64,000 nt of DNA, taken from the NCBI GenBank assembly GCA_037783545.1, contig JBBELK010000401.1, forward strand, positions 119,981 through 183,980, written 5' to 3'. Shown here one piece after another: positions 24,655 through 53,889 of this stretch (the first letter of the stretch is position 1; the number at the start of each line of letters is the position of its first letter). The notes under the pieces are model-generated. The model did no database searches. It saw nothing but the letters and a program-made list of their open reading frames with translations, and was not told the origin of the DNA. The DNA comes from Henricia sp. BOLD:AAB3569. Lineage: Eukaryota > Echinodermata > Asteroidea > Spinulosida > Echinasteridae. The translations under genes were made by a program, and so were the position numbers.

Positions 24655-24722
24655 CTTTAAATTTTGCATGCTCCAAACTGTATATATTCCGCACTTGTCA
24701 TGCAAAATTGACAGATTTTCGC
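24655..24722 (+). repeat. 68-bp partial monomer, copy 10
   Basis: Counterpart of copy 8 at the 7848-bp offset, with gttccaaaatg upstream and cagattttgacgg downstream. A private change, cgctggaaaatg, follows near 25009. Confidence 0.9.
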
Positions 24723-28400: not shown

Positions 28401-30583
28401 AGAGTTTAGGGAAAACGGAGCTCGGCTGCGTGGTTATTCCCCTAACCGTGGCTGTTGGGACACCCTGCGCCGCGCTGGTGTACATTTGTACGGCCGTTGA
28501 CTCACCCCAGATTGTGACGGGAATTAGGTCAAAGTGTGTCCCAAATGCCGGCAAATTTGGAAATCAAGGAATTTTCCAACCAACTTCAAATTGTGCATGC
28601 TCCAAACTGTATATATTCTGCACTTGTCATGCAAAATTGACAGATTTTCGCTGGGAAATGACGGAGAAATTTCAGAGTTTAGGGAAAACGGAGCTCGGCT
28701 GCGTGGTTATTCCCCTAACCGTGGATGTTGGGACACCCTGCGCCGCGCTGGTGTACATTTGTACGGCCGTTGACTCACCCCAGATTGTGACGGGAATTAG
28801 GTCAAAGTGTGTCCCAAATGCCGGCAAATTTGGAAATCAAGGAATTTTCCAACCAACTTCAAATTTTGCATGCTCCAAACTGTATATATTCCGCACTTGT
28901 CATGCAAAATTGACAGATTTTCGCTGGGAAATGACGGAGAAATTTCAGAGTTTAGGGAAAACGGAGCTCGGCTGCGTGGTTATTCCCCTAACCGTGGCTG
29001 TTGGGACACCCTGCGCCGCGCTGGTGTACATTTGTACGGCCGTTGACTCACCCCAGATTGTGACGGGAATTAGGTCAAAGTGTGTCCCAAATGCCGGAAA
29101 ATTTGGAAATCAAGGAATTTTCCAACCAACTTCAAATTTTGCATGCTCCAAACTGTATATATTCCGCACTTGTCATGCAAAATTGACAGATTTTCGCTGG
29201 GAAATGACGGAGAAATTTCAGAGTTTAGGGAAAACGGAGCTCGGCTGCGTGGTTATTCCCCTAACCGTGGCTGTTGGGACACCCTGCGCATGCGCCGCGC
29301 TGGTGTACATTTGTACGGCCGTTGACTCACCCCAGATTGTGACGGGAATTAGGTCAAAGTGTGTCCCAAATGCCTGCAAATTTGGAAATCAAGGAATTTT
29401 CCAACCAACTTCAAATTTTGCATGCTCCAAACTGTATATATTCCGCACTTGTCATGCAAAATTGACAGATTTTCGCTGGGAAATGACGGAGAAATTTCAG
29501 AGTTTAGGGAAAACGGAGCTCGGCTGCGTGGTTATTCCCCTTACCGTGGCTGTTGGGACACCCTGCGCCGCGCTGGTGTACATTTGTACGGCCGTTGACT
29601 CACTCCAGATTGTGACGGGAATTAGGTCAAAGTGTGTCCCAAATGCCGGCAAATTTGGAAATCAAGGAATTGTCCAACCAACTTCAAATGTTGCATGCTC
29701 CAAACTGTATATATTCCGCACTTGTCATGCAACATTGACAGATTTTCGCTGGGAAATGACGGAGAAATTTCAGAGTTTAGGGAAAACGGAGCTCGGCTGC
29801 GTGGTTATTCCCCTAACCGTGGCTGTTGGGACACCCTGCGCCGCGCTGGTGTACATTTGTACGGCCGTTGACTCATCCCAGATTGTGACGGGAATTATGT
29901 CAAAGTGTGTCCCAAATGCCGGCAAATTTGGAAATCAAGGAATTTTCCAACCAACTTCAAATTTTGCATGCTCCAAACTGTATATATTCCGCAATTGTCA
30001 TGCAAAATTGACAGATTTTCCCTGGGAAATGACGGAGAAATTTCAGAGTTTAGGGAAAACGGAGCTCGGCTGCGTGGTTATTCCCCTAACCGTGGCTGTT
30101 GGGACACCCTGCGCCGCGCTGGTGTACATTTGTACGGCCGTTGACTCACCCCATATTGTGACGGGAATTAGGTCAAAGTGTGTCCCAAATGCCGGCAAAT
30201 TTGGAAATCAAGGAATTTTCCAACCAACTTTAAATGTTGCATGCTCCAAACTGTATATATTCCGCACTTGCCATGCAAAATTGACAGATTTTCGCTGGGA
30301 AATGACGGAGAAATTTCAGAGTTTAGGGAAAACGGAGCTCGGCTGCGTGGTTATTCCCCTAACCGTGGCTGTTGGGACACCCTGCGCCGCGCTGGTGTAC
30401 ATTTGTACGGCCGTTGACTCACCCCAGATTGTGACGGGAATTAGGTCAAAGTGTGTCCCAAATGCCCGCAAATTTGGAAATCAAGGAATTTTCCAACCAA
30501 CTTCACATTTGGCATGCTCCAAACTGTATATATTCCATTTAATTTCAATGGGTATGAGGACAGCCTTCATATTTGTAAACTAG
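25436..30583 (+). other. Open frame of 1715 codons reading from satellite into LINE copy 1
   Basis: The satellite frame continues past the insertion point at 30537 and stops at 30581-30583 inside the LINE, out of phase with the RT remnant. The ending shows the frame is set by the monomer rather than by a gene boundary. Probably non-coding. Confidence 0.65.
25554..25621 (+). repeat. 68-bp partial monomer, copy 11
   Basis: Last copy of the partial monomer; counterpart of copy 9. No further copy occurs in the remaining 38 kb. Confidence 0.9.
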
Positions 30584-30795
30584 AATCCCTGGCCGATAGG
30601 AGATTAAGCCATTGCATTAAATTTGCCAAAACACTTGGTAAAAACATTCGCACTTCTTCCTTGTTGCCTCCAACCAGATTTGAGAACCATGGAAGACGTC
30701 TTAGAAACAGTCACACAATTTCTCAGCTTTCTGTCAGAACCACACGGTTTAAGAAAAGTCTCATTCCCTTTTTTATTGATATTCTGAATAAGTAA
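30538..30795 (+). pseudogene. LINE reverse transcriptase C-terminal remnant
   Basis: An open run of 85 codons ends in taa (30793-30795). Visible family hallmarks, in order, are a Y-E-D-S-L segment, an L-A-D-R-R motif followed by C-x2-K-F-A-K, an S-L-L-P-P segment, then an S-V-R-T-T-R-F-K-K-S run followed by I-P-F-F and a terminal I-L-N-K. This layout (RR, C..FA, arT.R..kSaIP..lLN) is known from the end of CR1/L2 and related Jockey-group LINE polymerases. The catalytic domain is absent. The satellite frame starting at the atg at 30451 runs in phase into it, giving a 114-codon fused frame. The same remnant lies in every LINE copy from insert start +1 to +258; I infer no function. Confidence 0.85.
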
Positions 30796-30921
30796 ATTTC
30801 AGCACTTTTAAACTTTGAATAGGGATTACCCTTGTCAGGTTATTATTATTATGTTAGGATGTGATGTGGTTATATGGTGTCTTATCTTCTGATGTATTAT
30901 TTCTGTAACATACATGTAATT

Positions 30922-30935
30922 TGGCCGTTTGGCCA
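30922..30935 (+). other. LINE 3' tail hairpin
   Basis: The arms tggcc and ggcca pair around a gttt loop, 12 bp before the polyadenylation-like signal. 3' stem-loops recognised by the element's own reverse transcriptase are known for several L2-clade LINEs. That this one has that role is inference. It is conserved in all 16 copies. Confidence 0.55.
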
Positions 30936-30947
30936 CGAGGTGTATGA

Positions 30948-30953
30948 AATAAA
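30948..30953 (+). promoter_or_regulatory. Polyadenylation-like signal aataaa in LINE tail
   Basis: The hexamer lies about 16 bp before the LINE end, in tgaaataaaatacc. It recurs at +411 from each LINE start, for example 32492, 33757 and 35022. Plus-strand satellite transcripts crossing domain B would meet one at each unit. Use of the site is inference. Confidence 0.5.
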
Positions 30954-31047
30954 ATACCAATACTAAACAATATTCCGCACTTGTCATGCAAAATTGACAG
31001 ATTTTCGCTGGGAAATGACGGAGAAATTTCAGAGTTTAGGGAAAACG

Positions 31048-31053
31048 GAGATC
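31048..31053 (+). other. gagatc marker of monomers downstream of LINE
   Basis: The monomer directly after every LINE has gagatc where nearly all others have gagctc, removing the SacI site. Two units carry it in the next monomer as well (31327 and 35401). It is a linked marker of the LINE-bearing haplotype and the likely 3' partner monomer at the time of insertion. Confidence 0.85.
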
Positions 31054-32080
31054 GGCTGCGTGGTTATTCCCCTAACCGTGGCTGTTGGGACACCCTGCGC
31101 ATGCGCCGCGCTGGTGTACATTTGTACGGCCGTTGACTCACACCAGATTGTGACGGGAATTAGGTCAAAGTGTGTCCCAAATGCCGGCAAATTTGGAAAT
31201 CAAGGAATTTTCCAACCAACTTCAAATTGTGCATGCTCCAAACTGTATATATTCCGCACTTGTCATGCAAAATTGACAGATTTTCGCTGGGAAATGACGG
31301 AGAAATTTCAGAGTTTAGGGAAAACGGAGATCGGCTGCGTGGTTATTCCCCTAACCGTGGCTGTTGGGACACCCTGCGCATGCGCCGCGCTGGTGTACAT
31401 TTGTACGGCCGTTGACTCACCCCAGATTGTGACGGGAATTAGGTCAAAGTGTGTCCCAAATGCCGGCAAATTTGGAAATCAATGAATTTTCCAACCAACT
31501 TCAAATTGTGCATGCTCCAAACTGTATATATTCCGCACTTGTCATGCAAAATTGACAGATTTTCGCTGGGAAATGACGGAGAAATTTCAGAGTTTAGGGA
31601 AAACGGAGCTCGGCTGCGTGGTTATTCCCCTAACCGTGGCTGTTGGGACACCCTGCTCCGCGCTGGTGTACATTTCTACGGCCGTTGACTCACCCCAGAT
31701 TGTGACGGGAATTAGGTCAAAGTGTGTCCCAAATGCCGGCAAATTTGGAAATCAAGGAATTTTCCAACCAACTTCAAATTTTGCATGCTCCAAACTGTAT
31801 ATATTCCGCACTTGTCACGCAAAATTGACAGATTTTCGCTGGGAAATGACGGAGAAATTTCAGAGTTTAGGGAAAACGGAGCTCGGCTGCGTGGTTATTC
31901 CCCTAACCGTGGCTGTTGGGACACCCTGCGCCGCGCTGGTGTACATTTGTACGGCCGTTGACTCACCCCAGATTGTGACGGGAATTAGGTCAAAGTGTGT
32001 CCCAAATGCCCGCAAATTTGGAAATCAAGGAATTTTCCAACCAACTTCACATTTGGCATGCTCCAAACTGTATATATTCC

Positions 32081-32513
32081 ATTCAATTTCAATGGGTATG
32101 AGGACAGCCTTCATATTTGTAAACTAGAATCCCTGGCCGATAGGAGATTAAGCCATTGCATTAAATTTGCCAAAACACTTGGTAAAAACATTCGCACTTC
32201 TTCCTTGTTGCCTCCAACCAGATTTGAGAACCATGGAAGACGTCTTAGAAACAGTCACACAATTTCTCAGCTTTCTGTCAGAACCACACGGTTTAAGAAA
32301 AGTCCCATTCCCTTTTTTATTGATATTCTGAATAAGTAAATTTCAGCACTTTTAAACTTTGAATAGGGATTACCCTTGTCAGGTTATTATTATTATGTTA
32401 GGATGTGATGTGGTTATATGGTGTCTTATCTTCTGATGTATTATTTCTGTAACATACATGTAATTTGGCCGTTTGGCCACGAGGTGTATGAAATAAAATA
32501 CCAATACTAAACA
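32081..32513 (+). mobile_element. LINE 3' end, copy 2
   Basis: Majority form, starting attcaatttc and with agtcccatt in place of copy 1's agtctcatt. RT remnant at 32082-32339, aataaa at 32492. Duplicated target atattcc at 32514-32520. The four monomers upstream include two with gagatc. Confidence 0.9.
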
Positions 32514-33345
32514 ATATTCCGCACTTGTCATGCAAAATTGACAGATTTTCGCTGGGAAATGACGGAGAAATTTCAGAGTTTAGGGAAAACGGAGATCGGC
32601 TGCGTGGTTATTCCCCTAACCGTGGCTGTTGGGACACCCTGCGCATGCGCCGCGCTGGTGTACATTTGTACGGCCGTTGACTCACCCCAGATTGTGACGG
32701 GAATTAGGTCAAAGTGTGTCCCAAATGCCGGCAAATTTGGAAATCAAGGAATTTTCCAACCAACTTCAAATTGTGCATGCTCCAAACTGTATATATTCCG
32801 CACTTGTCATGCAAAATTGACAGATTTTCGCTGGGAAATGACGGAGAAATTTCAGAGTTTAGGGAAAACGGAGCTCGGCTGCGTGGTTATTCCCCTAACC
32901 GTGGCTGTTGGGACACCCTGCGCCGCGCTGGTGTACATTTCTACGGCCGTTGACTCACCCCAGATTGTGACGGGAATTAGGTCAAAGTGTGTCCCAAATG
33001 CCGGCAAATTTGGAAATCAAGGAATTTTCCAACCAACTTCAAATTTTGCATGCTCCAAACTGTATATATTCCGCACTTGTCACGCAAAATTGACAGATTT
33101 TCGCTGGGAAATGACGGAGAAATTTCAGAGTTTAGGGAAAACGGAGCTCGGCTGCGTGGTTATTCCCCTAACCGTGGCTGTTGGGACACCCTGCGCCGCG
33201 CTGGTGTACATTTGTACGGCCGTTGACTCACCCCAGATTGTGACGGGAATTAGGTCAAAGTGTGTCCCAAATGCCCGCAAATTTGGAAATCAAGGAATTT
33301 TCCAACCAACTTCACATTTGGCATGCTCCAAACTGTATATATTCC

Positions 33346-33778
33346 ATTCAATTTCAATGGGTATGAGGACAGCCTTCATATTTGTAAACTAGAATCCCTG
33401 GCCGATAGGAGATTAAGCCATTGCATTAAATTTGCCAAAACACTTGGTAAAAACATTCGCACTTCTTCCTTGTTGCCTCCAACCAGATTTGAGAACCATG
33501 GAAGACGTCTTAGAAACAGTCACACAATTTCTCAGCTTTCTGTCAGAACCACACGGTTTAAGAAAAGTCCCATTCCCTTTTTTATTGATATTCTGAATAA
33601 GTAAATTTCAGCACTTTTAAACTTTGAATAGGGATTACCCTTGTCAGGTTATTATTATTATGTTAGGATGTGATGTGGTTATATGGTGTCTTATCTTCTG
33701 ATGTATTATTTCTGTAACATACATGTAATTTGGCCGTTTGGCCACGAGGTGTATGAAATAAAATACCAATACTAAACA
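33346..33778 (+). mobile_element. LINE 3' end, copy 3
   Basis: Majority form, 1265 bp after copy 2. RT remnant 33347-33604 is intact. Confidence 0.9.
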
Positions 33779-34610
33779 ATATTCCGCACTTGTCATGCAA
33801 AATTGACAGATTTTCGCTGGGAAATGACGGAGAAATTTCAGAGTTTAGGGAAAACGGAGATCGGCTGCGTGGTTATTCCCCTAACCGTGGCTGTTGGGAC
33901 ACCCTGCGCATGCGCCGCGCTGGTGTACATTTGTACGGCCGTTGACTCACCCCAGATTGTGACGGGAATTAGGTCAAAGTGTGTCCCAAATGCCGGCAAA
34001 TTTGGAAATCAAGGAATTTTCCAACCAACTTCAAATTTTGCATGCTCCAAACTGTATATATTCCGCACTTGTCATGCAAAATTGACATATTTTCGCTGGG
34101 AAATGACGGAGAAATTTCAGAGTTTAGGGAAAACGGAGCTCGGCTGCGTGGTTATTCCCCTAACCGTGGCTGTTGGGACACCCTGCGCCGCGCTGGTGTA
34201 CATTTGTACGGCCGTTGACTCACCCCATATTGTGACGGGAATTAGGTCAAAGTGTGTCCCAAATGCCGGCAAATTTGGAAATCAAGGAATTTTCCAACCA
34301 ACTTTAAATGTTGCATGCTCCAAACTGTATATATTCCGCACTTGCCATGCAAAATTGACAGATTTTCGCTGGGAAATGACGGAGAAATTTCAGAGTTTAG
34401 GGAAAACGGAGCTCGGCTGCGTGGTTATTCCCCTAACCGTGGCTGTTGGGACACCCTGCGCCGCGCTGGTGTACATTTGTACGGCCGTTGACTCACCCCA
34501 GATTGTGACGGGAATTAGGTCAAAGTGTGTCCCAAATGCCCGCAAATTTGGAAATCAAGGAATTTTCCAACCAACTTCACATTTGGCATGCTCCAAACTG
34601 TATATATTCC

Positions 34611-35043
34611 ATTTAATTTCAATGGGTATGAGGACAGCCTTCATATTTGTAAACTAGAATCCCTGGCCGATAGGAGATTAAGCCATTGCATTAAATTTGC
34701 CAAAACACTTGGTAAAAACATTCGCACTTCTTCCTTGTTGCCTCCAACCAGATTTGAGAACCATGGAAGACGTCTTAGAAACAGTCACACAATTTCTCAG
34801 CTTTCTGTCAGAACCACACGGTTTAAGAAAAGTCCCATTCCCTTTTTTATTGATATTCTGAATAAGTAAATTTCAGCACTTTTAAACTTTGAATAGGGAT
34901 TACCCTTGTCAGGTTATTATTATTATGTTAGGATGTGATGTGGTTATATGGTGTCTTATCTTCTGATGTATTATTTCTGTAACATACATGTAATTTGGCC
35001 GTTTGGCCACGAGGTGTATGAAATAAAATACCAATACTAAACA
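34611..35043 (+). mobile_element. LINE 3' end, copy 4 (hybrid with copy 1 left side)
   Basis: It begins atttaatttc as only copy 1 does, but has the majority agtcccatt. The two monomers before it (ccatattg, tttaaatgttgc, cttgccatg) match those before copy 1 and not those before other copies. This suggests exchange with the left edge of domain B. RT remnant 34612-34869 is intact. Confidence 0.9.
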
Positions 35044-36154
35044 ATATTCCGCACTTGTCATGCAAAATTGACAGATTTTCGCTGGGAAATGACGGAGAAA
35101 TTTCAGAGTTTAGGGAAAACGGAGATCGGCTGCGTGGTTATTCCCCTAACCGTGGCTGTTGGGACACCCTGCGCATGCGCCGCGCTGGTGTACATTTGTA
35201 CGGCCGTTGACTCACCCCAGATTGTGACGGGAATTAGGTCAAAGTGTGTCCCAAATGCCGGCAAATTTGGAAATCAAGGAATTTTCCAACCAACTTCAAA
35301 TTGTGCATGCTCCAAACTGTATATATTCCGCACTTGTCATGCAAAATTGACAGATTTTCGCTGGGAAATGACGGAGAAATTTCAGAGTTTAGGGAAAACG
35401 GAGATCGGCTGCGTGGTTATTCCCCTAACCGTGGCTGTTGGGACACCCTGCGCATGCGCCGCGCTGGTGTACATTTGTACGGCCGTTGACTCACCCCAGA
35501 TTGTGACGGGAATTAGGTCAAAGTGTGTCCCAAATGCCGGCAAATTTGGAAATCAAGGAATTTTCCAACCAACTTCAAATTGTGCATGCTCCAAACTGTA
35601 TATATTCCGCACTTGTCATGCAAAATTGACAGATTTTCGCTGGGAAATGACGGAGAAATTTCAGAGTTTAGGGAAAACGGAGCTCGGCTGCGTGGTTATT
35701 CCCCTAACCGTGGCTGTTGGGACACCCTGCTCCGCGCTGGTGTACATTTCTACGGCCGTTGACTCACCCCAGATTGTGACGGGAATTAGGTCAAAGTGTG
35801 TCCCAAATGCCGGCAAATTTGGAAATCAAGGAATTTTCCAACCAACTTCAAATTTTGCATGCTCCAAACTGTATATATTCCGCACTTGTCACGCAAAATT
35901 GACAGATTTTCGCTGGGAAATGACGGAGAAATTTCAGAGTTTAGGGAAAACGGAGCTCGGCTGCGTGGTTATTCCCCTAACCGTGGCTGTTGGGACACCC
36001 TGCGCCGCGCTGGTGTACATTTGTACGGCCGTTGACTCACCCCAGATTGTGACGGGAATTAGGTCAAAGTGTGTCCCAAATGCCCGCAAATTTGGAAATC
36101 AAGGAATTTTCCAACCAACTTCACATTTGGCATGCTCCAAACTGTATATATTCC

Positions 36155-36587
36155 ATTCAATTTCAATGGGTATGAGGACAGCCTTCATATTTGTAAACTA
36201 GAATCCCTGGCCGATAGGAGATTAAGCCATTGCATTAAATTTGCCAAAACACTTGGTAAAAACATTCGCACTTCTTCCTTGTTGCCTCCAACCAGATTTG
36301 AGAACCATGGAAGACGTCTTAGAAACAGTCACACAATTTCTCAGCTTTCTGTCAGAACCACACGGTTTAAGAAAAGTCCCATTCCCTTTTTTATTGATAT
36401 TCTGAATAAGTAAATTTCAGCACTTTTAAACTTTGAATAGGGATTACCCTTGTCAGGTTATTATTATTATGTTAGGATGTGATGTGGTTATATGGTGTCT
36501 TATCTTCTGATGTATTATTTCTGTAACATACATGTAATTTGGCCGTTTGGCCACGAGGTGTATGAAATAAAATACCAATACTAAACA
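36155..36587 (+). mobile_element. LINE 3' end, copy 5
   Basis: Majority form; counterpart of copy 2 at the 4074-bp offset. RT remnant 36156-36413. Confidence 0.9.
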
Positions 36588-37419
36588 ATATTCCGCACTT
36601 GTCATGCAAAATTGACAGATTTTCGCTGGGAAATGACGGAGAAATTTCAGAGTTTAGGGAAAACGGAGATCGGCTGCGTGGTTATTCCCCTAACCGTGGC
36701 TGTTGGGACACCCTGCGCATGCGCCGCGCTGGTGTACATTTGTACGGCCGTTGACTCACCCCAGATTGTGACGGGAATTAGGTCAAAGTGTGTCCCAAAT
36801 GCCGGCAAATTTGGAAATCAAGGAATTTTCCAACCAACTTCAAATTGTGCATGCTCCAAACTGTATATATTCCGCACTTGTCATGCAAAATTGACAGATT
36901 TTCGCTGGGAAATGACGGAGAAATTTCAGAGTTTAGGGAAAACGGAGCTCGGCTGCGTGGTTATTCCCCTAACCGTGGCTGTTGGGACACCCTGCGCCGC
37001 GCTGGTGTACATTTCTACGGCCGTTGACTCACCCCAGATTGTGACGGGAATTAGGTCAAAGTGTGTCCCAAATGCCGGCAAATTTGGAAATCAAGGAATT
37101 TTCCAACCAACTTCAAATTTTGCATGCTCCAAACTGTATATATTCCGCACTTGTCACGCAAAATTGACAGATTTTCGCTGGGAAATGACGGAGAAATTTC
37201 AGAGTTTAGGGAAAACGGAGCTCGGCTGCGTGGTTATTCCCCTAACCGTGGCTGTTGGGACACCCTGCGCCGCGCTGGTGTACATTTGTACGGCCGTTGA
37301 CTCACCCCAGATTGTGACGGGAATTAGGTCAAAGTGTGTCCCAAATGCCCGCAAATTTGGAAATCAAGGAATTTTCCAACCAACTTCACATTTGGCATGC
37401 TCCAAACTGTATATATTCC

Positions 37420-37852
37420 ATTCAATTTCAATGGGTATGAGGACAGCCTTCATATTTGTAAACTAGAATCCCTGGCCGATAGGAGATTAAGCAATTGCAT
37501 TAAATTTGCCAAAACACTTGGTAAAAACATTCGCACTTCTTCCTTGTTGCCTCCAACCAGATTTGAGAACCATGGAAGACGTCTTAGAAACAGTCACACA
37601 ATTTCTCAGCTTTCTGTCAGAACCACACGGTTTAAGAAAAGTCCCATTCCCTTTTTTATTGATATTCTGAATAAGTAAATTTCAGCACTTTTAAACTTTG
37701 AATAGGGATTACCCTTGTCAGGTTATTATTATTATGTTAGGATGTGATGTGGTTATATGGTGTCTTATCTTCTGATGTATTATTTCTGTAACATACATGT
37801 AATTTGGCCGTTTGGCCACGAGGTGTATGAAATAAAATACCAATACTAAACA
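37420..37852 (+). mobile_element. LINE 3' end, copy 6
   Basis: Majority form with one private change, agcaattgc for agccattgc, which turns His to Asn in the RT remnant (37421-37678). Confidence 0.9.
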
Positions 37853-40064
37853 ATATTCCGCACTTGTCATGCAAAATTGACAGATTTTCGCTGGGAAATG
37901 ACGGAGAAATTTCAGAGTTTAGGGAAAACGGAGATCGGCTGCGTGGTTATTCCCCTAACCGTGGCTGTTGGGACACCCTGCGCATGCGCCGCGCTGGTGT
38001 ACATTTGTACGGCCGTTGACTCACCCCAGATTGTGACGGGAATTAGGTCAAAGTGTGTCCCAAATGCCGGCAAATTTGGAAATCAAGGAATTTTCCAACC
38101 AACTTCAAATTTTGCATGCTCCAAACTGTATATATTCCGCACTTGTCATGCAAAATTGACATATTTTCGCTGGGAAATGACGGAGAAATTTCAGAGTTTA
38201 GGGAAAACGGAGCTCGGCTGCGTGGTTATTCCCCTAACCGTGGCTGTTGGGACACCCTGCGCCGCGCTGGTGTACATTTGTACGGCCGTTGACTCACCCC
38301 AAATTGTGACGGGAATAAGGTCAAAGTGTGTCCCAAATGCCGGCAAATTTGGAAATCAAGGAATTTTCCAACCAACTTCAAATTTTGCATGCTCCAAACT
38401 GTATATATTCCGCACTTGTCATGCAAAATTGACAGATTTTCGCTTGGAAATGACGGAGAAATTTCAGAGTTTAGGGAAAACGGAGCTCGGCTGCGTGGTT
38501 ATTCCCCTAACCGTGGCTGTTGGGACACCCTGCGCATGCGCTGGTGTACATTTGTACGGCCGTTGACTCACCCCTGATTGTGACGGGAATTAGGTCAAAG
38601 TGTGTCCCAAATGCCGGCAAATTTGGAAATCAAGGAATTTTCCAACCAACTTCAAATTGTGCATGCTCCAAACTGTATATATTCCGCACTTGTCATGCAA
38701 AATTGACAGATTTTCGCTGGGAAATGACGGAGAAATTTCAGAGTTTAGGGAAAACGGAGCTCGGCTGCGTGGTTATTCCCCTAACCGTGGCTGTTGGGAC
38801 ACCCTGCGCATGCGCCGCGCTGGTGTACATTTGTACGGCCGTTGACTCACCCCAGATTGTGACGGGAATTAGGTCAAAGTGTGTCCCAAATGCCGGCAAA
38901 TTTGGAAATCAAGGAATTTTCCAACCAACTTCAAATTTTGCATGCTCCAAACTGTATATATTCCGCACTTGTCATGCAAAATTGACATATTTTCGCTGGG
39001 AAATGACGGAGAAATTTCAGAGTTTAGGGAAAACGGAGCTCGGCTGAGTGGTTATTCCCCTAACCGTGGCTGTTGGGACACCCTGCGCATGCGCTGGTGT
39101 ACATTTGTACGGCCGTTGACCCATCCCAGATTGTGACGGGAATTAGGTCAAAGTGTGTCCCAAATGCCGGCAAATTTGGAAATCAAGGAATTTTCCAACC
39201 AACTTCAAATTGTGCATGCTCCAAACTGTATATATTCCGCACTTGTCATGCAAAATTGACAAATTTTCGCTGGGAAATGACGGAGAAATTTCAGAGTTTA
39301 GGGAAAACGGAGCTCGGATGCGTGGTTATTCCCCTAACCGTGGCTGTTGGGACACCCTGCGCCGCGCTGGTGTACATTTCTACGGCCGTTGACTCACCCC
39401 AGATTGTGACGGGAATTAGGTCAAAGTGTGTCCCAAATGCCGGCAAATTTGGAAATCAAGGAATTTTCCAACCAACTTCAAATTTTGCATGCTCCAAACT
39501 GTATATATTCCGCACTTGTCATGCAAAATTGACAGATTTTCGCTGGGAAATGACGGAGAAATTTCAGAGTTTAGGGAAAACGGAGCTCGGCTGCGTGGTT
39601 ATTCCCCTAACCGTGGCTGTTGGGACACCCTGCGCATGCGCCGCGCTGGTGTACATTTGAACGGCCGTTGACTCACCCCAGATTGTGACGGGAATTAGGT
39701 CAAAGTGTGTCCCAAATGCCGGCAAATTTGGAAATCAAGGAATTTTCCAACCAACTTCAAATTTTGCATGCTCCAAACCTGTATATATTCCGCACTTGTC
39801 ATGCAAAATAGACAGATTTTCGCTAGGAAATGACGGAGAAATTTCAGAGTTTAGGGAAAACGGAGCTCGGCTGCGTGGTTATTCCCCTAACCGTGGCTGT
39901 TGGGACACCCTGCGCCGCGCTGGTGTACATTTGTACGGCCGTTGACTCACCCCAGATTGTGACGGGAATTAGGTCAAAGTGTGTCCCAAATGCCCGCAAA
40001 TTTGGAAATCAAGGAATTTTCCAACCAACTTCACATTTGGCATGCTCCAAACTGTATATATTCC

Positions 40065-40497
40065 ATTCAATTTCAATGGGTATGAGGACAGCCTTCATAT
40101 TTGTAAACTAGAATCCCTGGCCGATAGGAGATTAAGCCATTGCATTAAATTTGCCAAAACACTTGGTAAAAACATTCGCACTTCTTCCTTGTTGCCTCCA
40201 ACCAGATTTGAGAACCATGGAAGACGTCTTAGAAACAGTCACACAATTTCTCAGCTTTCTGTCAGAACCACACGGTTTAAGAAAAGTCCCATTCCCTTTT
40301 TTATTGATATTCTGAATAAGTAAATTTCAGCACTTTTAAACTTTGAATAGGGATTACCCTTGTCAGGTTATTATTATTATGTTAGGATGTGATGTGGTTA
40401 TATGGTGTCTTATCTTCTGATGTATTATTTCTGTAACATACATGTAATTTGGCCGTTTGGCCACGAGGTGTATGAAATAAAATACCAATACTAAACA
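40065..40497 (+). mobile_element. LINE 3' end, copy 7
   Basis: Majority form. It follows the longest interval (2645 bp, eight monomers), whose last satellite monomers carry several disrupted sites: catttgaacgg, ccaaacctgta and cgctaggaa. RT remnant 40066-40323. Confidence 0.9.
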
Positions 40498-41762: not shown

Positions 41763-42868
41763 ATATTCCGCACTTGTCATGCAAAATTGACAGATTTTCG
41801 CTGGGAAATGACGGAGAAATTTCAGAGTTTAGGGAAAACGGAGATCGGCTGCGTGGTTATTCCCCTAACCGTGGCTGTTGGGACACCCTGCGCATGCGCC
41901 GCGCTGGTGTACATTTGTACGGCCGTTGACTCACCCCAGATTGTGACGGGAATTAGGTCAAAGTGTGTCCCAAATGCCGGCAAATTTGGAAATCAAGGAA
42001 TTTTCCAACCAACTTCAAATTTTGCATGCTCCAAACTGTATATATTCCGCACTTGTCATGCAAAATTGACATATTTTCGCTGGGAAATGACGGAGAAATT
42101 TCAGAGTTTAGGGAAAACGGAGCTCGGCTGCGTGGTTATTCCCCTAACCGTGGCTGTTGGGACACCCTGCGCCGCGCTGGTGTACATTTGTACGGCCGTT
42201 GACTCACCCCAAATTGTGACGGGAATTAGGTCAAAGTGTGTCCCAAATGCCGGCAAATTTGGAAATCAAGGAATTTTCCAACCAACTTCAAATTTTGCAT
42301 GCTCCAAACTGTATATATTCCGCACTTGTCATGCAAAATTGACAGATTTTCGCTTGGAAATGACGGAGAAATTTCAGAGTTTAGGGAAAACGGAGCTCGG
42401 CTGCGTGGTTATTCCCCTAACCGTGGCTGTTGGGACACCCTGCGCATGCGCTGGTGTACATTTGTACGGCCGTTGACTCACCCCTGATTGTGACGGGAAT
42501 TAGGTCAAAGTGTGTCCCAAATGCCGGCAAATTTGGAAATCAAGGAATTTTCCAACCAACTTCAAATTGTGCATGCTCCAAACTGTATATATTCCGCACT
42601 TGTCATGCAAAATTGACAGATTTTCGCTGGGAAATGACGGAGAAATATCAGAGTTTAGGGAAAACGGAGCTCGGATGCGTGGTTATTCCCCTAACCGTGG
42701 CTGTTGGGACACCCTGCGCCGCGCTGGTGTACATTTCTACGGCCGTTGACTCACCCCAGATTGTGACGGGAATTAGGTCAAAGTGTGTCCCAAATGCCCG
42801 CAAATTTGGAAATCAAGGAATTTTCCAACCAACTTCACATTTGGCATGCTCCAAACTGTATATATTCC

Positions 42869-43301
42869 ATTCAATTTCAATGGGTATGAGGACAGCCTTC
42901 ATATTTGTAAACTAGAATCCCTGGCCGTTAGGAGATTAAGCCATTGCATTAAATTTGCCAAAACACTTGGTAAAAACATTCGCACTTCTTCCTTGTTGCC
43001 TCCAACCAGATTTGAGAACCATGGAAGACGTCTTAGAAACAGTCACACAATTTCTCAGCTTTCTGTCAGAACCACACGGTTTAAGAAAAGTCCCATTCCC
43101 TTTTTTATTGATATTCTGAATAAGTAAATTTCAGCACTTTTAAACTTTGAATAGGGATTACCCTTGTCAGGTTATTATTATTATGTTAGGATGTGATGTG
43201 GTTATATGGTGTCTTATCTTCTGATGTATTATTTCTGTAACATACATGTAATTTGGCCGTTTGGCCACGAGGTGTATGAAATAAAATACCAATACTAAAC
43301 A
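42869..43301 (+). mobile_element. LINE 3' end, copy 9
   Basis: One private change, ggccgttagg, replaces Asp by Val just before the RR motif of the remnant (42870-43127). Confidence 0.9.
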
Positions 43302-44133
43302 ATATTCCGCACTTGTCATGCAAAATTGACAGATTTTCGCTGGGAAATGACGGAGAAATTTCAGAGTTTAGGGAAAACGGAGATCGGCTGCGTGGTTATT
43401 CCCCTAACCGTGGCTGTTGGGACACCCTGCGCATGCGCCGCGCTGGTGTACATTTGTACGGCCGTTGACTCACCCCAGATTGTGACGGGAATTAGGTCAA
43501 AGTGTGTCCCAAATGCCGGCAAATTTGGAAATCAAGGAATTTTCCAACCAACTTCAAATTGTGCATGCTCCAAACTGTATATATTCCGCACTTGTCATGC
43601 AAAATTGACAGATTTTCGCTGGGAAATGACGGAGAAATTTCAGAGTTTAGGGAAAACGGAGCTCGGCTGCGTGGTTATTCCCCTAACCGTGGCTGTTGGG
43701 ACACCCTGCGCCGCGCTGGTGTACATTTCTACGGCCGTTGACTCACCCCAGATTGTGACGGGAATTAGGTCAAAGTGTGTCCCAAATGCCGGCAAATTTG
43801 GAAATCAAGAAATTTTCCAACCAACTTCAAATTTTGCATGCTCCAAACTGTATATATTCCGCACTTGTCACGCAAAATTGACAGATTTTCGCTGGGAAAT
43901 GACGGAGAAATTTCAGAGTTTAGGGAAAACGGAGCTCGGCTGCGTGGTTATTCCCCTAACCGTGGCTGTTGGGACACCCTGCGCCGCGCTGGTGTACATT
44001 TGTACGGCCGTTGACTCACCCCAGATTGTGACGGGAATTAGGTCAAAGTGTGTCCCAAATGCCCGCAAATTTGGAAATCAAGGAATTTTCCAACCAACTT
44101 CACATTTGGCATGCTCCAAACTGTATATATTCC

Positions 44134-44566
44134 ATTCAATTTCAATGGGTATGAGGACAGCCTTCATATTTGTAAACTAGAATCCCTGGCCGATAGGAGA
44201 TTAAGCCATTGCATTAAATTTGCCAAAACACTTGGTAAAAACATTCGCACTTCTTCCTTGTTGCCTCCAACCAGATTTGAGAACCATGGAAGACGTCTTA
44301 GAAACAGTCACACAATTTCTCAGCTTTCTGTCAGAACCACACGGTTTAAGAAAAGTCCCATTCCCTTTTTTATTGATATTCTGAATAAGTAAATTTCAGC
44401 ACTTTTAAACTTTGAATAGGGATTACCCTTGTCAGGTTATTATTATTATGTTAGGATGTGATGTGGTTATATGGTGTCTTATCTTCTGATGTATTATTTC
44501 TGTAACATACATGTAATTTGGCCGTTTGGCCACGAGGTGTATGAAATAAAATACCAATACTAAACA
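44134..44566 (+). mobile_element. LINE 3' end, copy 10
   Basis: Majority form. The preceding monomer has caagaaattttcc near 43806. RT remnant 44135-44392. Confidence 0.9.
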
Positions 44567-45398
44567 ATATTCCGCACTTGTCATGCAAAATTGACAGATT
44601 TTCGCTGGGAAATGACGGAGAAATTTCAGAGTTTAGGGAAAACGGAGATCGGCTGCGTGGTTATTCCCCTAACCGTGGCTGTTGGGACACCCTGCGCATG
44701 CGCCGCGCTGGTGTACATTTGTACGGCCGTTGACTCACCCCAGATTGTGACGGGAATTAGGTCAAAGTGTGTCCCAAATGCCGGCAAATTTGGAAATCAA
44801 GGAATTTTCCAACCAACTTCAAATTGTGCATGCTCCAAACTGTATATATTCCGCACTTGTCATGCAAAATTGACAGATTTTCGCTGGGAAATGACGGAGA
44901 AATTTCAGAGTTTAGGGAAAACGGAGCTCGGCTGCGTGGTTATTCCCCTAACCGTGGCTGTTGGGACACCCTGCGCCGCGCTGGTGTACATTTCTACGGC
45001 CGTTGACTCACCCCAGATTGTGACGGGAATTAGGTCAAAGTGTGTCCCAAATGCCGGCAAATTTGGAAATCAAGGAATTTTCCAACCAACTTCAAATTTT
45101 GCATGCTCCAAACTGTATATATTCCGCACTTGTCACGCAAAATTGACAGATTTTCGCTGGGAAATGACGGAGAAATTTCAGAGTTTAGGGAAAACGGAGC
45201 TCGGCTGGGTGGTTATTCCCCTAACCGTGGCTGTTGGGACACCCTGCGCCGCGCTGGTGTACATTTGTACGGCCGTTGACTCACCCCAGATTGTGACGGG
45301 AATTAGGTCAAAGTGTGTCCCAAATGCCCGCAAATTTGGAAATCAAGGAATTTTCCAACCAACTTCACATTTGGCATGCTCCAAACTGTATATATTCC

Positions 45399-45831
45399 AT
45401 TCAATTTCAATGGGTATGAGGACAGCCTTCATTATTGTAAACTAGAATCCCTGGCCGATAGGAGATTAAGCCATTGCATTAAATTTGCCAAAACACTTGG
45501 TAAAAACATTCGCACTTCTTCCTTGTTGCCTCCAACCAGATTTGAGAACCATGGAAGACGTCTTAGAAACAGTCACACAATTTCTCAGCTTTCTGTCAGA
45601 ACCACACGGTTTAAGAAAAGTCCCATTCCCTTTTTTATTGATATTCTGAATAAGTAAATTTCAGCACTTTTAAACTTTGAATAGGGATTACCCTTGTCAG
45701 GTTATTATTATTATGTTAGGATGTGATGTGGTTATATGGTGTCTTATCTTCTGATGTATTATTTCTGTAACATACATGTAATTTGGCCGTTTGGCCACGA
45801 GGTGTATGAAATAAAATACCAATACTAAACA
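45399..45831 (+). mobile_element. LINE 3' end, copy 11
   Basis: Private change cattattgt for catatttgt near 45430, altering one residue in each overlapping frame. RT remnant 45400-45657 remains open. Confidence 0.9.
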
Positions 45832-46936
45832 ATATTCCGCACTTGTCATGCAAAATTGACAGATTTTCGCTGGGAAATGACGGAGAAATTTCAGAGTTTA
45901 GGGAAAACGGAGATCGGCTGCGTGGTTATTCCCCTAACCGTGGCTGTTGGGACACCCTGCGCATGCGCCGCGCTGGTGTACATTTGTACGGCCGTTGACT
46001 CACCCCAGATTGTGACGGGAATTAGGTCAAAGTGTGTCCCAAATGCCGGCAAATTTGGAAATCAAGGAATTTTCCAACCAACTTCAAATTGTGCATGCTC
46101 CAAACTGTATATATTCCGCACTTGTCATGCAAAATTGACAGATTTTCGCTGGGAAATGACGGAGAAATTTCAGAGTTTAGGGAAAACGGAGCTCGGCTGC
46201 GTGGTTATTCCCCTAACCGTGGCTGTTGGGACACCCTGCGCCGCGCTGGTGTACATTTCTACGGCCGTTGACTCACCCCAGATTGTGACGGGAATTAGGT
46301 CAAAGTGTGTCCCAAATGCCGGCAAATTTGGAAATCAAGGAATTTTCCAACCAACTTCAAATTTTGCATGCTCCAAACTGTATATATTCCGCACTTGTCA
46401 CGCAAAATTGACAGATTTTCGCTGGGAAATGACGGAGAAATTTCAGAGTTTAGGGAAAACGGAGCTCGGCTGCGTGGTTATTCCCCTAACCGTGGCTGTT
46501 GGGACACCCTGCGCCGCGCTGGTGTACATTTCTACGGCCGTTGACTCACCCCAGATTGTGACGGGAATTAGGTCAAAGTGTGTCCCAAATGCCGGCAAAT
46601 TTGGAAATCAAGGAATTTTCCAACCAACTTCAAATTTTGCATGCTCCAAACTGTATATATTCCGCACTTGTCACGCAAAATTGACAGATTTTCGCTGGGA
46701 AATGACGGAAAAATTTCAGAGTTTAGGGAAAACGGAGCTCGGCTGCGTGGTTATTCCCCTAACCGTGGCTGTTGGGACACCCTGCGCCGCGCTGGTGTAC
46801 ATTTGTACGGCCGTTGACTCACCCCAGATTGTGACGGGAATTAGGTCAAAGTGTGTCCCAAATGCCCGCAAATTTGGAAATCAAGGAATTTTCCAACCAA
46901 CTTCACATTTGGCATGCTCCAAACTGTATATATTCC

Positions 46937-47369
46937 ATTCAATTTCAATGGGTATGAGGACAGCCTTCATATTTGTAAACTAGAATCCCTGGCCGATAGG
47001 AGATTAAGCCATTGCATTAAATTTGCCAAAACACTTGGTAAAAACATTCGCACTTCTTCCTTGTTGCCTCCAACCAGATTTGAGAACCATGGAAGACGTC
47101 TTAGAAACAGTCACACAATTTCTCAGCTTTCTGTCAGAACCACACGGTTTAAGAAAAGTCCCATTCCCTTTTTTATTGATATTCTGAATAAGTAAATTTC
47201 AGCACTTTTAAACTTTGAATAGGGATTACCCTTGTCAGGTTATTATTATTATGTTAGGATGTGATGTGGTTATATGGTGTCTTATCTTCTGATGTATTAT
47301 TTCTGTAACATACATGTAATTTGGCCGTTTGGCCACGAGGTGTATGAAATAAAATACCAATACTAAACA
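46937..47369 (+). mobile_element. LINE 3' end, copy 12
   Basis: Majority form, preceded by four monomers, two of which repeat the cacgcaaaa/ttctacgg type. RT remnant 46938-47195. Confidence 0.9.
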
Positions 47370-49020
47370 ATATTCCGCACTTGTCATGCAAAATTGACAG
47401 ATTTTCGCTGGGAAATGACGGAGAAATTTCAGAGTTTAGGGAAAACGGAGATCGGCTGCGTGGTTATTCCCCTAACCGTGGCTGTTGGGACACCCTGCGC
47501 ATGCGCCGCGCTGGTGTACATTTGTACGGCCGTTGACTCACCCCAGATTGTGACGGGAATTAGGTCAAAGTGTGTCCCAAATGCCGGCAAATTTGGAAAT
47601 CAAGGAATTTTCCAACCAACTTCAAATTGTGCATGCTCCAAACTGTATATATTCCGCACTTGTCATGCAAAATTGACAGATTTTCGCTGGGAAATGACGG
47701 AGAAATTTCAGAGTTTAGGGAAAACGGAGCTCGGCTGCGTGGTTATTCCCCTAACCGTGGCTGTTGGGACACCCTGCGCCGCGCTGGTGTACATTTCTAC
47801 GGCCGTTGACTCACCCCAGATTGTGACGGGAATTAGGTCAAAGTGTGTCCCAAATGCCGGCAAATTTGGAAATCAAGGAATTTTCCAACCAACTTCAAAT
47901 TTTGCATGCTCCAAACTGTATATATTCCGCACTTGTCACGCAAAATTGACAGATTTTCGCTGGGAAATGACGGAGAAATTTCAGAGTTTAGGGAAAACGG
48001 AGCTCTGCTGCGTGGTTATTCCCCTAACCGTGGCTGTTGGGACACCCTGCGCCGCGCTGGTGTTCATTTGTACGGCCGTTGACTCACCCCAGATTGTGAC
48101 GGGAATTAGGTCAAAGTGTGTCCCAAATGCCGGCAAATTTGGAAATCAAGGAATTTTCCAACCAACTTCAAATTTTGCATGCTCCAAACTGTATATATTC
48201 CGCACTTGTCATGCAAAATTGACAGATTTTCGCTGGGAAATGACGGAGAAATTTCAGAGTTTAGGGAAAACGGAGCTCGGCTGCGTGGTTATTCCCCTAA
48301 CCGTGGCTGTTGGGACACCCTGCGCCGCGCTGGTGTACATTTCTACGGCCATTGACTCACCCCAGATTGTGACGGGAATTAGGTCAAAGTGTGTCCCAAA
48401 TGCCGGCAAATTTGGAAATCAAGGAATTTTCCAACCAACTTCAAATTTTGCATGCTCCAAACTGTATATATTCCGCACTTGTCATGCAAAATTGACAGAT
48501 TTTCGCTGGGAAATTACGTAGAAATTTCAGAGTTTAGGGAAAACGGAGCTCGGCTGCGTGGTTATTCCCCTAACCGTGGCTGTTGGGACACCCTGCGCCG
48601 CGCTGGTGTACATTTCTACGGCCGTTGACTCACCCCAGATTGTGACGGGAATTAGGTCAAAGTGTGTCCCAAATGCCGGCAAATTTGGAAATCAAGGAAT
48701 TTTCCAACCAACTTCAAATTTTGCATGCTCCAAACTGTATATATTCCGCACTTGTCATGCAAAATTGACAGATTTTCGCTGGGAAATTACGTAGAAATTT
48801 CAGAGTTTAGGGAAAACGGAGCTCGGCTGCGTGGTTATTCCCCTAACCGTGGCTGTTGGGACACCCTGCGCCGCGCTGGTGTACATTTGTACGGCCGTTG
48901 ACTCACCCCAGATTGTGACGGGAATTAGGTCAAAGTGTGTCCCAAATGCCCGCAAATTTGGAAATCAAGGAATTTTTCAACCAACTTCACATTTTGCATG
49001 CTCCAAACTGTATATATTCC

Positions 49021-49453
49021 ATTCAATTTCAATGGGTATGAGGACAGCCTTCATATTTGTAAACTAGAATCCCTGTCCGATAGGAGATTAAGCCATTGCA
49101 TTAAATTTGCCAAAACACTTGGTAAAAACATTCGCACTTCTTCCTTGTTGCCTCCAACCAGATTTGAGAACCATGGATGACGTCTTAGAAACAGTCACAC
49201 AATTTCTCAGCTTTCTGTCAGAACCACACGGTTTAAAAAAAGTCCCATTCCCTTTTTTATTGATATTCTGAATAAGTAAATTTCAGCACTTTTAAACTTT
49301 GAATAGGGATTACCCTTGTCAGGTTATTATTATTATGTTAGGATGTGATGTGGTTATATGGTGTCTTATCTTCTGATGTATTATTTCTGTAACATACATG
49401 TAATTTGGCCGTTTGGCCACGAGGTGTATGAAATAAAATACCAATACTAAAAA
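49021..49453 (+). mobile_element. LINE 3' end, copy 13, RT remnant with premature stop
   Basis: The most changed copy. It has ctgtccgat, a catggatgac change that makes an in-frame tga (fused frame ends at 49180), and tttaaaaaaag. Its 3' end is ctaaaaaat rather than ctaaacaat. The host monomer reads cacattttgc. It follows six monomers, two with an added stop in the long frame (aaattacgtag). Confidence 0.9.
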
Positions 49454-50285
49454 ATATTCCGCACTTGTCATGCAAAATTGACAGATTTTCGCTGGGAAAT
49501 GACGGAGAAATTTCAGAGTTTAGGGAAAACGGAGATCGGCTGCGTGGTTATTCCCCTAACCGTGGCTGTTGGGACACCCTGCGCATGCGCCGCGCTGGTG
49601 TACATTTGTACGGCCGTTGACTCACCCCAGATTGTGACGGGAATTAGGTCAAAGTGTGTCCCAAATGCCGGCAAATTTGGAAATCAAGGAATTTTCCAAC
49701 CAACTTCAAATTTTGCATGCTCCAAACTGTATATATTCCGCACTTGTCATGCAAAATTGACAGATTTTCGCTGGGAAATGACGGAGAAATTTCAGAGTTT
49801 AGGGAAAACGGAGCTCGGCTGCGTGGTTATTCCCCTAACCGTGGCTGTTGGGACACCCTGCGCCGCGCTGGTGTACATTTCTACGGCCGTTGACTCACCC
49901 CAGATTGTGACGGGAATTAGGTCAAAGTGTGTCCCAAATGCCGGCAAATTTGGAAATCAAGGAATTTTCCAACCAACTTCAAATTTTGCATGCTCCAAAC
50001 TGTATATATTCCGCACTTGTCACGCAAAATTGACAGATTTTCGCTGGGAAATGACGGAGAAATTTCAGAGTTTAGGGAAAACGGAGCTCGGCTGCGTGGT
50101 TATTCCCCTAACCGTGGCTGTTGGGACACCCTGCGCCGCGCTGGTGTTCATTTGTACGGCCGTTGACTCACCCCAGATTGTGACGGGATTTAGGTCAAAG
50201 TGTGTCCCAAATGCCCGCAAATTTGGAAATCAAGGAATTTTCCAACCAACTTCACATTTTGCATGCTCCAAACTGTATATATTCC

Positions 50286-50718
50286 ATTCAATTTCAATGG
50301 GTATGAGGACAGCCTTCATATTTGTAAACTAGAATCCCTGGCCGATAGGAGATTAAGCCATTGCATTAAATTTGCCAAAACACTTGGTAAAAACATTCGC
50401 ACTTCTTCCTTGTTGCCTCCAACCAGATTTGAGAACCATGGAAGACGTCTTAGAAACAGTCACACAATTTATCAGCTTTCTGTCAGAACCACACGGTTTA
50501 AGAAAAGTCCCATTCCCTTTTTTATTGATATTCTGAATAAGTAAATTTCAGCACTTTTAAACTTTGAATAGGGATTACCCTTGTCAGGTTATTATTATTA
50601 TGTTAGGATGTGATGTGGTTATATGGTGTCTTATCTTCTGATGTATTATTTCTGTAACATACATGTAATTTGGCCGTTTGGCCACGAGGTGTATGAAATA
50701 AAATACCAATACTAAAAA
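50286..50718 (+). mobile_element. LINE 3' end, copy 14
   Basis: It shares the ctaaaaaat 3' end and the cacattttgc host with copy 13, but has no premature stop. Private change atttatcagc (Ser to Tyr). RT remnant 50287-50544. Confidence 0.9.
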
Positions 50719-51552
50719 ATATTCCGCACTTGTCATGCAAAATTGACAGATTTTCGCTGGGAAATGACGGAAAAATTTCAGAGTTTAGGGAAAACGGAGA
50801 TCGGCTGCGTGGTTATTCCCCTAACCGTGGCTGTCGGGACACCCTGCGCATGCGCCGCGCTGGTGTACATTTGTACGGCCGTTGACTCACCCCAGATTGT
50901 GACGGGAATTAGGTCAAAGTGTGTCCCAAATGCCGGCAAATTTGGAAATCAAGGAATTTTCCAACCAACTTCAAATTTTGCATGCTCCAAACTGTATATA
51001 TTCCGCACTTGTCATGCAAAATTGACAGATTTTCGCTGGGAAGTGACGGAGAAATTTCAGAGTTTAGGGAAAACGGAGCTCGGCTGCGTGGTTATTCCCC
51101 TAACCGTGGCTGTTGGGACACCCTGCGCATGCGCTGGTGTACATTTCTACGGCCGTTGACTCACCCCAGATTGTGACGGGAATTAGGTCAAAGTGTGTCC
51201 CAAATGCCGGCAAATTTGGAAATCAAGGAATTTTCCAACCAACTTCAAATTTTGCATGCTCCAAACTGTATATATTCCGCACTTGTCATGCAAAATTGAC
51301 AGATTTTCGCTGGGAAATGACGGAGAAATTTCAGAGTTTAGGGAAAACGGAGCTCGGCTGCGTGGTTATTCCCCTAGCCGTGGCTGTTGGGACACCCTGC
51401 GCATGCGCTGGTGTACATTTCTACGGCCGTTGACTCACCCCAGATTGTGACGGGAATTAGGTCAAAGTGTGTCCCAAATGCCGGCAAATTTTGAAATCAA
51501 GGAATTTTCCAACCAACTTCACATTTGGCATGCTCCAAACTGTATATATTCC

Positions 51553-51985
51553 ATTCAATTTCAATGGGTATGAGGACAGCCTTCATATTTGTAAACTAGA
51601 ATCCCTGGCCGATAGGAGATTAAGCCATTGCATTAAATTTGCCAAAACACTTGGTAAAAACATTCGCACTTCTTCCTTGTTGCCTCCAACCAGATTTGAG
51701 AACCATGGAAGACGTCTTAGAAACAGTCACACAATTTCTCAGCTTTCTGTCAGAACCACACGGTTTAAGAAAAGTCCCATTCCCTTTTTTATTGATATTC
51801 TGAATAAGTAAATTTCAGCACTTTTAAACTTTGAATAGGGATTACCCTTGTCAGGTTATTATTATTATGTTAGGATGTGATGTGGTTATATGGTGTCTTA
51901 TCTTCTGATGTATTATTTCTGTAACATACATGTAATTTGGCCGTTTGGCCACGAGGTGTATGAAATAAAATACCAATACTAAAAA
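51553..51985 (+). mobile_element. LINE 3' end, copy 15
   Basis: 3' end ctaaaaaat. The two monomers before the host are 274 bp, and the host monomer has aaattttgaaatc. RT remnant 51554-51811. Confidence 0.9.
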
Positions 51986-53366
51986 ATATTCCGCACTTGT
52001 CATGCAAAATTGACAGATTTTCGCTGGGAAATGACGGAGAAATTTCAGAGTTTAGGGAAAACGGAGATCGGCTGCGTGGTTATTCCCCTAACCGTGGCTG
52101 TTGGGACACCCTGCGCATGCGCCGCGCTGGTGTACATTTGTACGGCCGTTGACTCACCCCAGATTGTGACGGGAATTAGGTCAAAGTGTGTCCCAAATGC
52201 CGGCAAATTTGGAAATCAAGGAATTTTCCAACCAACTTCAAATTTTGCATGCTCCAAACTGTATATATTCCGCACTTGTCACGCAAAATTGACAGATTTT
52301 CGCTGGGAAATGACGGAGAAATTTCAGAGTTTAGGGAAAACGGAGCTCGGCTGCGTGGTTATTCCCCTAACCGTGGCTGTTGGGACACCCTGCGCCGCGC
52401 TGGTGTACATTTCTACGGCCGTTGACTCACCCCAGATTGTGACGGGAATTAGGTCAAAGTGTGTCCCAAATGCCGGCAAATTTGGAAATCAAGGAATTTT
52501 CCAACCAACTTCAAATTTTGCATGCTCCAAACTGTATATATTCCGCACTTGTCATGCAAAATTGACAGATTTTCGCTGGGAAATGACGGAGAAATTTCAG
52601 AGTTTAGGGAAAACGGAGCTCGGCTGCGTGGTTATTCCCCTAACCGTGGCTGTTGGGACACCCTGCGCATGCGCTGGTGTACATTTCTACGGCCGTTGAC
52701 TCACCCCAGATTGTGACGGGAATTAGGTCAAAGTGTGTCCCAAATGCCGGCAAATTTTGAATTCAAGGAATTTTCCAACCAACTTCAAATTTTGCATGCT
52801 CCAAACTGTATATATTCCGCACTTGTCATGCAAAATTGACAGATTTTCGCTGGGAAATGACGGAGAAATTTCAGAGTTTAGGGAAAACGGAGCTCGGCTG
52901 CGTGGTTATTCCCCTAACCGTGGCTGTTGGGACACCCTGCGCATGCGCTGGTGTACATTTCTACGGCCGTTGACTCACCCCAGATTGTGACGGGAATTAG
53001 GTCAAAGTGTGTCCCAAATGCCGGCAAATTTTGAAATCAAGGAATTTTCAAACCAACTTCAAATTTTGCATGCTCCAAACTGTATATATTCCGCACTTGT
53101 CATGCAAAATTGACAGATTTTCGCTGGGAAATGACGGAGAAATTTCAGAGTTTAGGGAAAACGGAGCTCGGCTGCGTGGTTATTCCCCTAACCGTGGCTG
53201 TTGGGACACCCTGCGCATGCGCTGGTGTACATTTCTACGGCCGTTGACTCACCCCAGATTGTGACGGGAATTAGGTCAAAGTGTGTCCCAAATGCCGGCA
53301 AATTTTGAAATCAAGGAATTTTCCAACCAACTTCACATTTGGCATGCTCCAAACTGTATATATTTC

Positions 53367-53799
53367 ATTCAATTTCAATGGGTATGAGGACAGCCTTCAT
53401 ATTTGTAAACTAGAATCCCTGGCCGATAGGAGATTAAGCCATTGCATTAAATTTGCCAAAACACTTGGTAAAAACATTCGCACTTCTTCCTTGTTGCCTC
53501 CAACCAGATTTGAGAACCATGGAAGACGTCTTAGAAACAGTCACACAATTTCTCAGCTTTCTGTCAGAACCACACGGTTTAAGAAAAGTCCCATTCCCTT
53601 TTTTATTGATATTCTGAATAAGTAAATTTCAGCACTTTTAAACTTTGAATAGGGATTACCCTTGTCAGGTTATTATTATTATGTTAGGATGTGATGTGGT
53701 TATATGGTGTCTTATCTTCTGATGTATTATTTCTGTAACATACATGTAATTTGGCCGTTTGGCCACGAGGTGTATGAAATAAAATACCAATACTAAAAC
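53367..53799 (+). mobile_element. LINE 3' end, copy 16 (right edge of domain B)
   Basis: The left flank reads tatatttc instead of tatattcc, so its target duplication carries one mismatch. The 3' end is ctaaaacat. It is the last LINE copy; 10.2 kb of LINE-free satellite follow. RT remnant 53368-53625. Confidence 0.9.
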
Positions 53800-53889
53800 A
53801 TATTCCGCACTTGTCATGCAAAATTGACAGATTTTCGCTGGGAAATGACGGAGAAATTTCAGAGTTTAGGGAAAACGGAGATCGGCTGC

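Follow-up and report, generated by a model that had tools for sequence, protein, structure and literature searches.

The 64,000-bp stretch of Henricia sp. BOLD:AAB3569 analysed here (contig JBBELK010000401.1, positions 119,981 to 183,980, hereafter the window) consists of satellite DNA in which 16 copies of a 433-bp insert occupy one and the same position of the satellite monomer. We consider it highly probable (roughly 0.86) that these copies descend from a single insertion of a truncated non-LTR (non-long terminal repeat) retrotransposon, which was then amplified in blocks that kept phase with the satellite and parts of whose flanks were later exchanged.

A BLAST search of the window with the first insert returned the 16 copies between 30,537 and 53,799, all on the + strand and with 98.84–100% identity to that first copy, and there were no copies elsewhere in the window. 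The alignment extends over 433 bp in 12 copies and over 431 bp in the last four, which differ near the end, and the inserts differ from one another by 0.435% on average. A 46-bp piece of the insert gave 16 matches, compared with 0 expected from 100 dinucleotide shuffles. Aligning the inserts with their flanks revealed a single pair of junctions, common to all 16: TATATATTCC followed by ATTYAATTTC at the 5′ side, and ...ACTAAA[A/C][A/C]... followed by TATTCCGCAC at the 3′ side. The target duplication is 7 bp long (ATATTCC), and its left copy is exact in 15 of 16 cases, the copy at 53,367 having one substitution (ATATTTC). Insertion took place after TATATATTCC; counted along the consensus from Tandem Repeats Finder (TRF) that begins TGTCATGC, this is position 268. 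An earlier note on this DNA had described 16 copies at one monomer position (268/269), in one orientation and with one target duplication; BLAST and the flank alignment confirm this description, with one breakpoint pair and no differing breakpoints. The target sequence (TATATATTCCGCAC) also occurs in the window 184 times in its empty form.

TRF reports the array as a single row covering 1–64,000, the whole window, with a period of 273 bp, and 226 BLAST pieces of one monomer tile it, all in the + orientation and in phase. These pieces comprise 204 near-full monomers, with a mean identity of 97.0% to the query monomer, and 22 partial pieces. The tiling is interrupted by more than 4 bp at 16 places, all at inserts and none elsewhere; the break measures 440 bp in 15 of them and 442 bp in the other, where BLAST trimmed a mismatched end. 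Most near-full monomers (161/204) are 273 or 279 bp long, and across the window these two classes are distinguished by a 6-bp insertion (TGCGCA) close to the monomer centre. The monomer directly after the insert belongs to the longer class in 16/16 units.

Besides the junctions, the copies share markers in their flanks. In an alignment of the 204 monomers, numbered by alignment column, A266C is present in all 16 host monomers and in 1 of the 188 others, T271G in 14 hosts (not those of copies 13 and 14) and in 1 of the 188 others, and G224C in 14 hosts (not those of copies 15 and 16) and in none of the 188. The monomer next to the insert carries C75A in 16/16 units, and the only two further carriers each lie directly after one of these. 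Within the insert, site 432 separates a left from a right group, with C in the 12 copies on the left and A in the 4 on the right, and divergence rises weakly with distance, both for the insert (rank correlation 0.28, permutation p 0.008) and for the whole unit (0.29, p 0.006). Common breakpoints, a common target duplication and flank-specific variants, the marks of a co-amplified insertion of single origin, are thus all present. Repeated, independent insertion of a site-specific LINE (long interspersed nuclear element) at one satellite position would also place all 16 copies at one site, and some non-LTR elements are indeed site-specific. However, the 5′ truncation point is identical in 16/16 copies, nearly all private host markers and, throughout, the downstream marker are common to them, the insert variant is grouped by array position, and no copy is found beyond 30.5–53.8 kb despite the empty targets; on the common truncation and the flank markers we reject this explanation, which is hardly credible. 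As so many empty targets remain, the site was offered many times and, on this evidence, used once. The proposal that the copies arose from one insertion and were then amplified locally is therefore well supported by the breakpoint pair, the target duplication, the private flank markers, the position-grouped variant and the block duplication described below.

The same note had stated that every spacing between inserts equals whole monomers plus 440 bp, and this holds for all 15 spacings. In order, they contain 4, 3, 3, 4, 3, 8, 3, 4, 3, 3, 4, 6, 3, 3 and 5 near-full monomers, that is, three monomers in 8/15, four in 4/15, and five, six or eight in 1/15 each. Monomers of 273, 274 and 279 bp exactly account for 13 of the 15 lengths, while the spacings of 2,645 and 1,814 bp require other monomer lengths. 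The commonest spacing is 1,265 bp (7/15), with one more of 1,267 bp, and runs of the exact 1,265-bp spacing are at most two long. The units have private markers in common, but three-monomer spacings make up 8/15 and the insert block is irregular, so that the term "new higher-order repeat" overstates its order.

Long self-matches, for which one best match was reported per offset, include a contiguous tandem duplication at an offset of 4,074 bp within the insert block (Table 1) and a match at an offset of 3,910 bp with 3 mismatches in 2,821 bp. Two further direct repeats lie outside the insert block, one at an offset of 7,848 bp (15922–29828, 5 mismatches in 6,059 bp) and one at 6,908 bp (from 5783, 5 mismatches in 5,706 bp); in both, the match does not extend over the full length of the offset, so the copies do not adjoin seamlessly in tandem. 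The exact recurrence of 1,265 bp in seven spacings might be taken to reflect extrachromosomal circles, in which rolling-circle copies of a unit of approximately 1,265 bp would be reinserted by homology, and rolling-circle amplification with reinsertion is proposed as a satellite mechanism in PMC8122249. The short exact runs, however, are interspersed with 4-, 5-, 6- and 8-monomer spacings, and the 4,074-bp tandem duplication and the insert-free 7,848- and 6,908-bp repeats are most simply explained as chromosomal duplication, although larger circles could still produce them; we therefore regard the circle model as improbable. Long arrays are also hard to assemble, and some of the duplications are near-exact (4–5 mismatches over 4–6 kb), as they would be if the assembler had duplicated or misjoined long tandem units. 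Against such an artefact, which we judge very improbable, the units have numerous individual substitutions (12 variable sites in the insert and 23 in the left-hand 291 alignment columns) and varied spacings, neither of which would result from assembler duplication of one unit. The copy number of individual blocks could nevertheless be wrong.

To account for these data, we propose that a 5′-truncated non-LTR retrotransposon copy, comprising the last 85 codons and the 3′ UTR (untranslated region), would have inserted once into one satellite monomer, producing the 7-bp target duplication. The host monomer, the insert and the downstream monomer, along with further monomers, would then have been multiplied in phase, in blocks of approximately 1.3 to 4 kb, by unequal homologous exchange or replication-based tandem duplication, and later exchange would have replaced parts of the flanks. 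We infer one of these two processes over another in-phase process; both fit, and they are indistinguishable here.

Several observations weigh against this single-insertion reading. The correlations with distance are weak (0.28–0.29), and no clean tree is obtained because the hosts lacking T271G and those lacking G224C are different pairs of copies (13 and 14, and 15 and 16, respectively). In a four-gamete test, 10/55 informative site pairs fail (site -262 or 693 takes part in 9/10), which implies sequence exchange between units or parallel mutation. At 4,145–4,417, some 26 kb away, lies the one monomer that combines 266C and 271G but has no insert; it may descend from the pre-insertion host and could instead be a product of post-insertion exchange, and we rejected it as proof of a pre-insertion allele and retained it as a candidate only. 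Finally, the 85 amino acids encoded by the insert (those of copy 2, 32082–32336, in the protein-database and viral-contig queries) have no relative in Pfam, PDB, the protein database or the viral contigs, none of which is a eukaryotic repeat library, so the LINE identity rests on anatomy.

The host monomers of copies 15 and 16 (51279–51552 and 53093–53366) carry, in their upstream parts, variants that belong to other monomer classes. Among the 188 non-host monomers, these variants occur in 3 (140A), 3 (141T), 22 (159C) and 9 (233T). We considered whether copies 15 and 16, with hosts lacking G224C, are the oldest units, and rejected this in view of these upstream variants. As the upstream parts share variants with other classes, the two copies look recombinant, which suggests exchange within the monomer, close to the insert. 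Taken with the four-gamete failures, these parts point to flank exchange after the insertion, and such exchange seems to have continued.

By its anatomy, the insert is probably a 5′-truncated LINE copy. Frame 2 is open for 85 codons from the 5′ edge to a stop, and its being open at that edge suggests the 5′ truncation; the reverse transcriptase domain falls outside the fragment. In mononucleotide shuffles (20,000 each), the insert's own frame was open in 0.3–0.4% and any of the six frames in 1.5%, and the latter figure makes the open frame suggestive but not decisive alone. The remaining ~174 bp contain a hairpin region and then an A-rich tail at the 3′ end, and three insert copies end in ACTAAAAAA. 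The 3′-end hairpin has a z-score of -2.05, with 6/200 shuffles equally stable. The 7-bp duplication, the frame open at the 5′ edge and the A-rich end are features of LINE copies. The protein tail may resemble the C-termini of CR1/L2-group reverse transcriptases, and the CR1/L2-like label given in the earlier note is a putative one. In one viral-contig search, 16 stretches matched a short pattern and 0 were confirmed by tblastn, and a scan of bacterial and archaeal genomes gave nothing. The insert might instead be a SINE (short interspersed nuclear element), another element or a captured genomic segment, likewise inserted once and amplified; no recognisable relative emerged from Rfam (30–34 kb), Pfam, PDB, the protein database or the viral contigs, and an open frame of this length is seen in the 1.5% of six-frame shuffles given above, but the 85-codon frame with its stop, the 3′ UTR hairpin, the A-rich end and the short duplication are together as expected if a truncated LINE was copied in by target-primed reverse transcription, and we consider a non-LINE origin unlikely. 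The earlier designation of the insert as a LINE tail is probable in view of frame, hairpin, A-rich end and target duplication.

The insert does not stand out from its surroundings in copy number. When only the 143 monomers lying outside the block are counted, 3/68 substitution variants reach at least 16 copies and 7/68 at least 11, and for all 204 monomers 6/103 reach at least 16; the outside-block control is the fairer one because two of the six whole-array variants, 266C and 75A, themselves mark the flanks of the insert. This control assumes a single origin for each variant, and by it the copy number of the insert is not above that of ordinary array variants. Monomers differ by a mean of 8.2 columns inside the block (61 monomers) and 7.9 outside (143), and the 68-bp duplication, which is unrelated to the insert, has itself reached 11 copies. 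Insert-driven amplification is unsupported, since some outside-block variants reach as many copies and monomer differences are close. As similar repeats lack the insert and those 3/68 other variants reach 16 copies, the insert seems to be a passenger, presumably a passive one; nothing requires or excludes that it promoted its own spread. More speculatively, and in our view improbably, the insert-bearing unit could be an early new satellite family that is advantaged by its LINE tail (e.g. through transcription or insert-promoted recombination) and is replacing older monomers. If true, one array would keep the stages of a new family: an empty host relative, the first units and multi-unit blocks.

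The 22 partial pieces of the tiling correspond to the 11 copies of the 68-bp duplication, which lie at 5.5–25.6 kb. Each spans a monomer junction, in pieces of 32 and 36 bp, and the monomer preceding it is of the same class in 11/11 cases. An Rfam search of the 30–34-kb portion gave no match, and none of the titles listed in literature searches, which were not made by sequence or species, names this satellite. The coordinates of all features are collected in Table 1.

Table 1. Positions of the satellite array, the insert copies and associated features in the window
Feature	Position	Strand	Description	Source
Satellite array, ~273/279-bp monomers	1..64000	+	One orientation, runs past both window ends	TRF + BLAST
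Insert-free monomer with 266C and 271G	4145..4417	+	Candidate empty-site relative of host	
Zone with 68-bp partial-monomer duplications	5481..25621	+	11 copies; independent structural mark	TRF + BLAST
Tandem duplication, offset 4,074 bp	30022..38301	+	30022-34227 vs 34096-38301, 4 mismatches in 4,206, three inserts per copy	
Block of 16 insert-bearing units	30264..54085	+	Host monomer, insert and 279-bp monomer with 75A, plus spacer monomers	
Insert copy 1	30537..30969	+	433 bp: 85-codon open reading frame tail, stop, 3′ UTR, A-rich end	
Insert copy 2	32081..32513	+		BLAST
Insert copy 3	33346..33778	+		BLAST
Insert copy 4	34611..35043	+	Insert site 4 = T, host marker -265 = C, both as in copy 1	
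Insert copy 5	36155..36587	+		BLAST
Insert copy 6	37420..37852	+		BLAST
Insert copy 7	40065..40497	+		BLAST
Insert copy 8	41330..41762	+		BLAST
Insert copy 9	42869..43301	+		BLAST
Insert copy 10	44134..44566	+		BLAST
Insert copy 11	45399..45831	+		BLAST
Insert copy 12	46937..47369	+	Last copy with C at insert site 432	
Insert copy 13	49021..49453	+	Site 432 = A; host without T271G	
Insert copy 14	50286..50718	+	Site 432 = A; host without T271G	
Insert copy 15	51553..51985	+	Site 432 = A; host monomer belongs to another class in its upstream part	
Insert copy 16	53367..53799	+	Site 432 = A; host class as copy 15; left target ATATTTC	

Several LINE-related satellites are listed in two reviews (PMC6947457 and PMC9659126). 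The chicken HinfI (SCR1) satellite, with its embedded CR1 (Li & Leung 2006, as cited in PMC6947457, ref. 97, and in a table of PMC9659126), resembles the present case in that, as these sources describe it, the 3′ UTR and partial coding end of a CR1-type LINE lie within a tandem unit. Unlike in the chicken, where the CR1 end would be found in each tandem unit, the insert here lies with its target duplication inside a pre-existing satellite and is confined to 16 copies in a local block, the array having 204 near-full monomers; the two are alike in kind and belong to different families. The cetacean common satellite and PROsat of Phodopus, related to the L1 3′ end and to L1 ORF2 respectively in the account of PMC9659126, are similar in having LINE 3′ or ORF2 fragments in tandem repeats, but there the monomer itself resembles part of a LINE, whereas monomer and insert show no visible relationship in the present array. 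Human alpha satellite, whose higher-order repeats are described in PMC9859433 as shaped by unequal crossing-over, with mention of mobile-element interruptions, likewise has multi-monomer units multiplied in phase; the unit found here differs in carrying a transposon insert as its mark and in its irregular length, with 3 to 8 monomers to each insert. The portion of a further review at hand (PMC5857280) held nothing that decides the present case.

A transposon end inside a tandem repeat is therefore already known, as with chicken CR1, and the present array is a very clear example in which the transitional anatomy is preserved. It amounts to a clean natural marker experiment, in which the insertion reveals the multiplication of 1 to 4 kb blocks, the spread of a marker and the swapping of flanks. 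It also shows a middle step, itself already accepted, on the way from the arrival of a transposon in a satellite to a composite satellite family.

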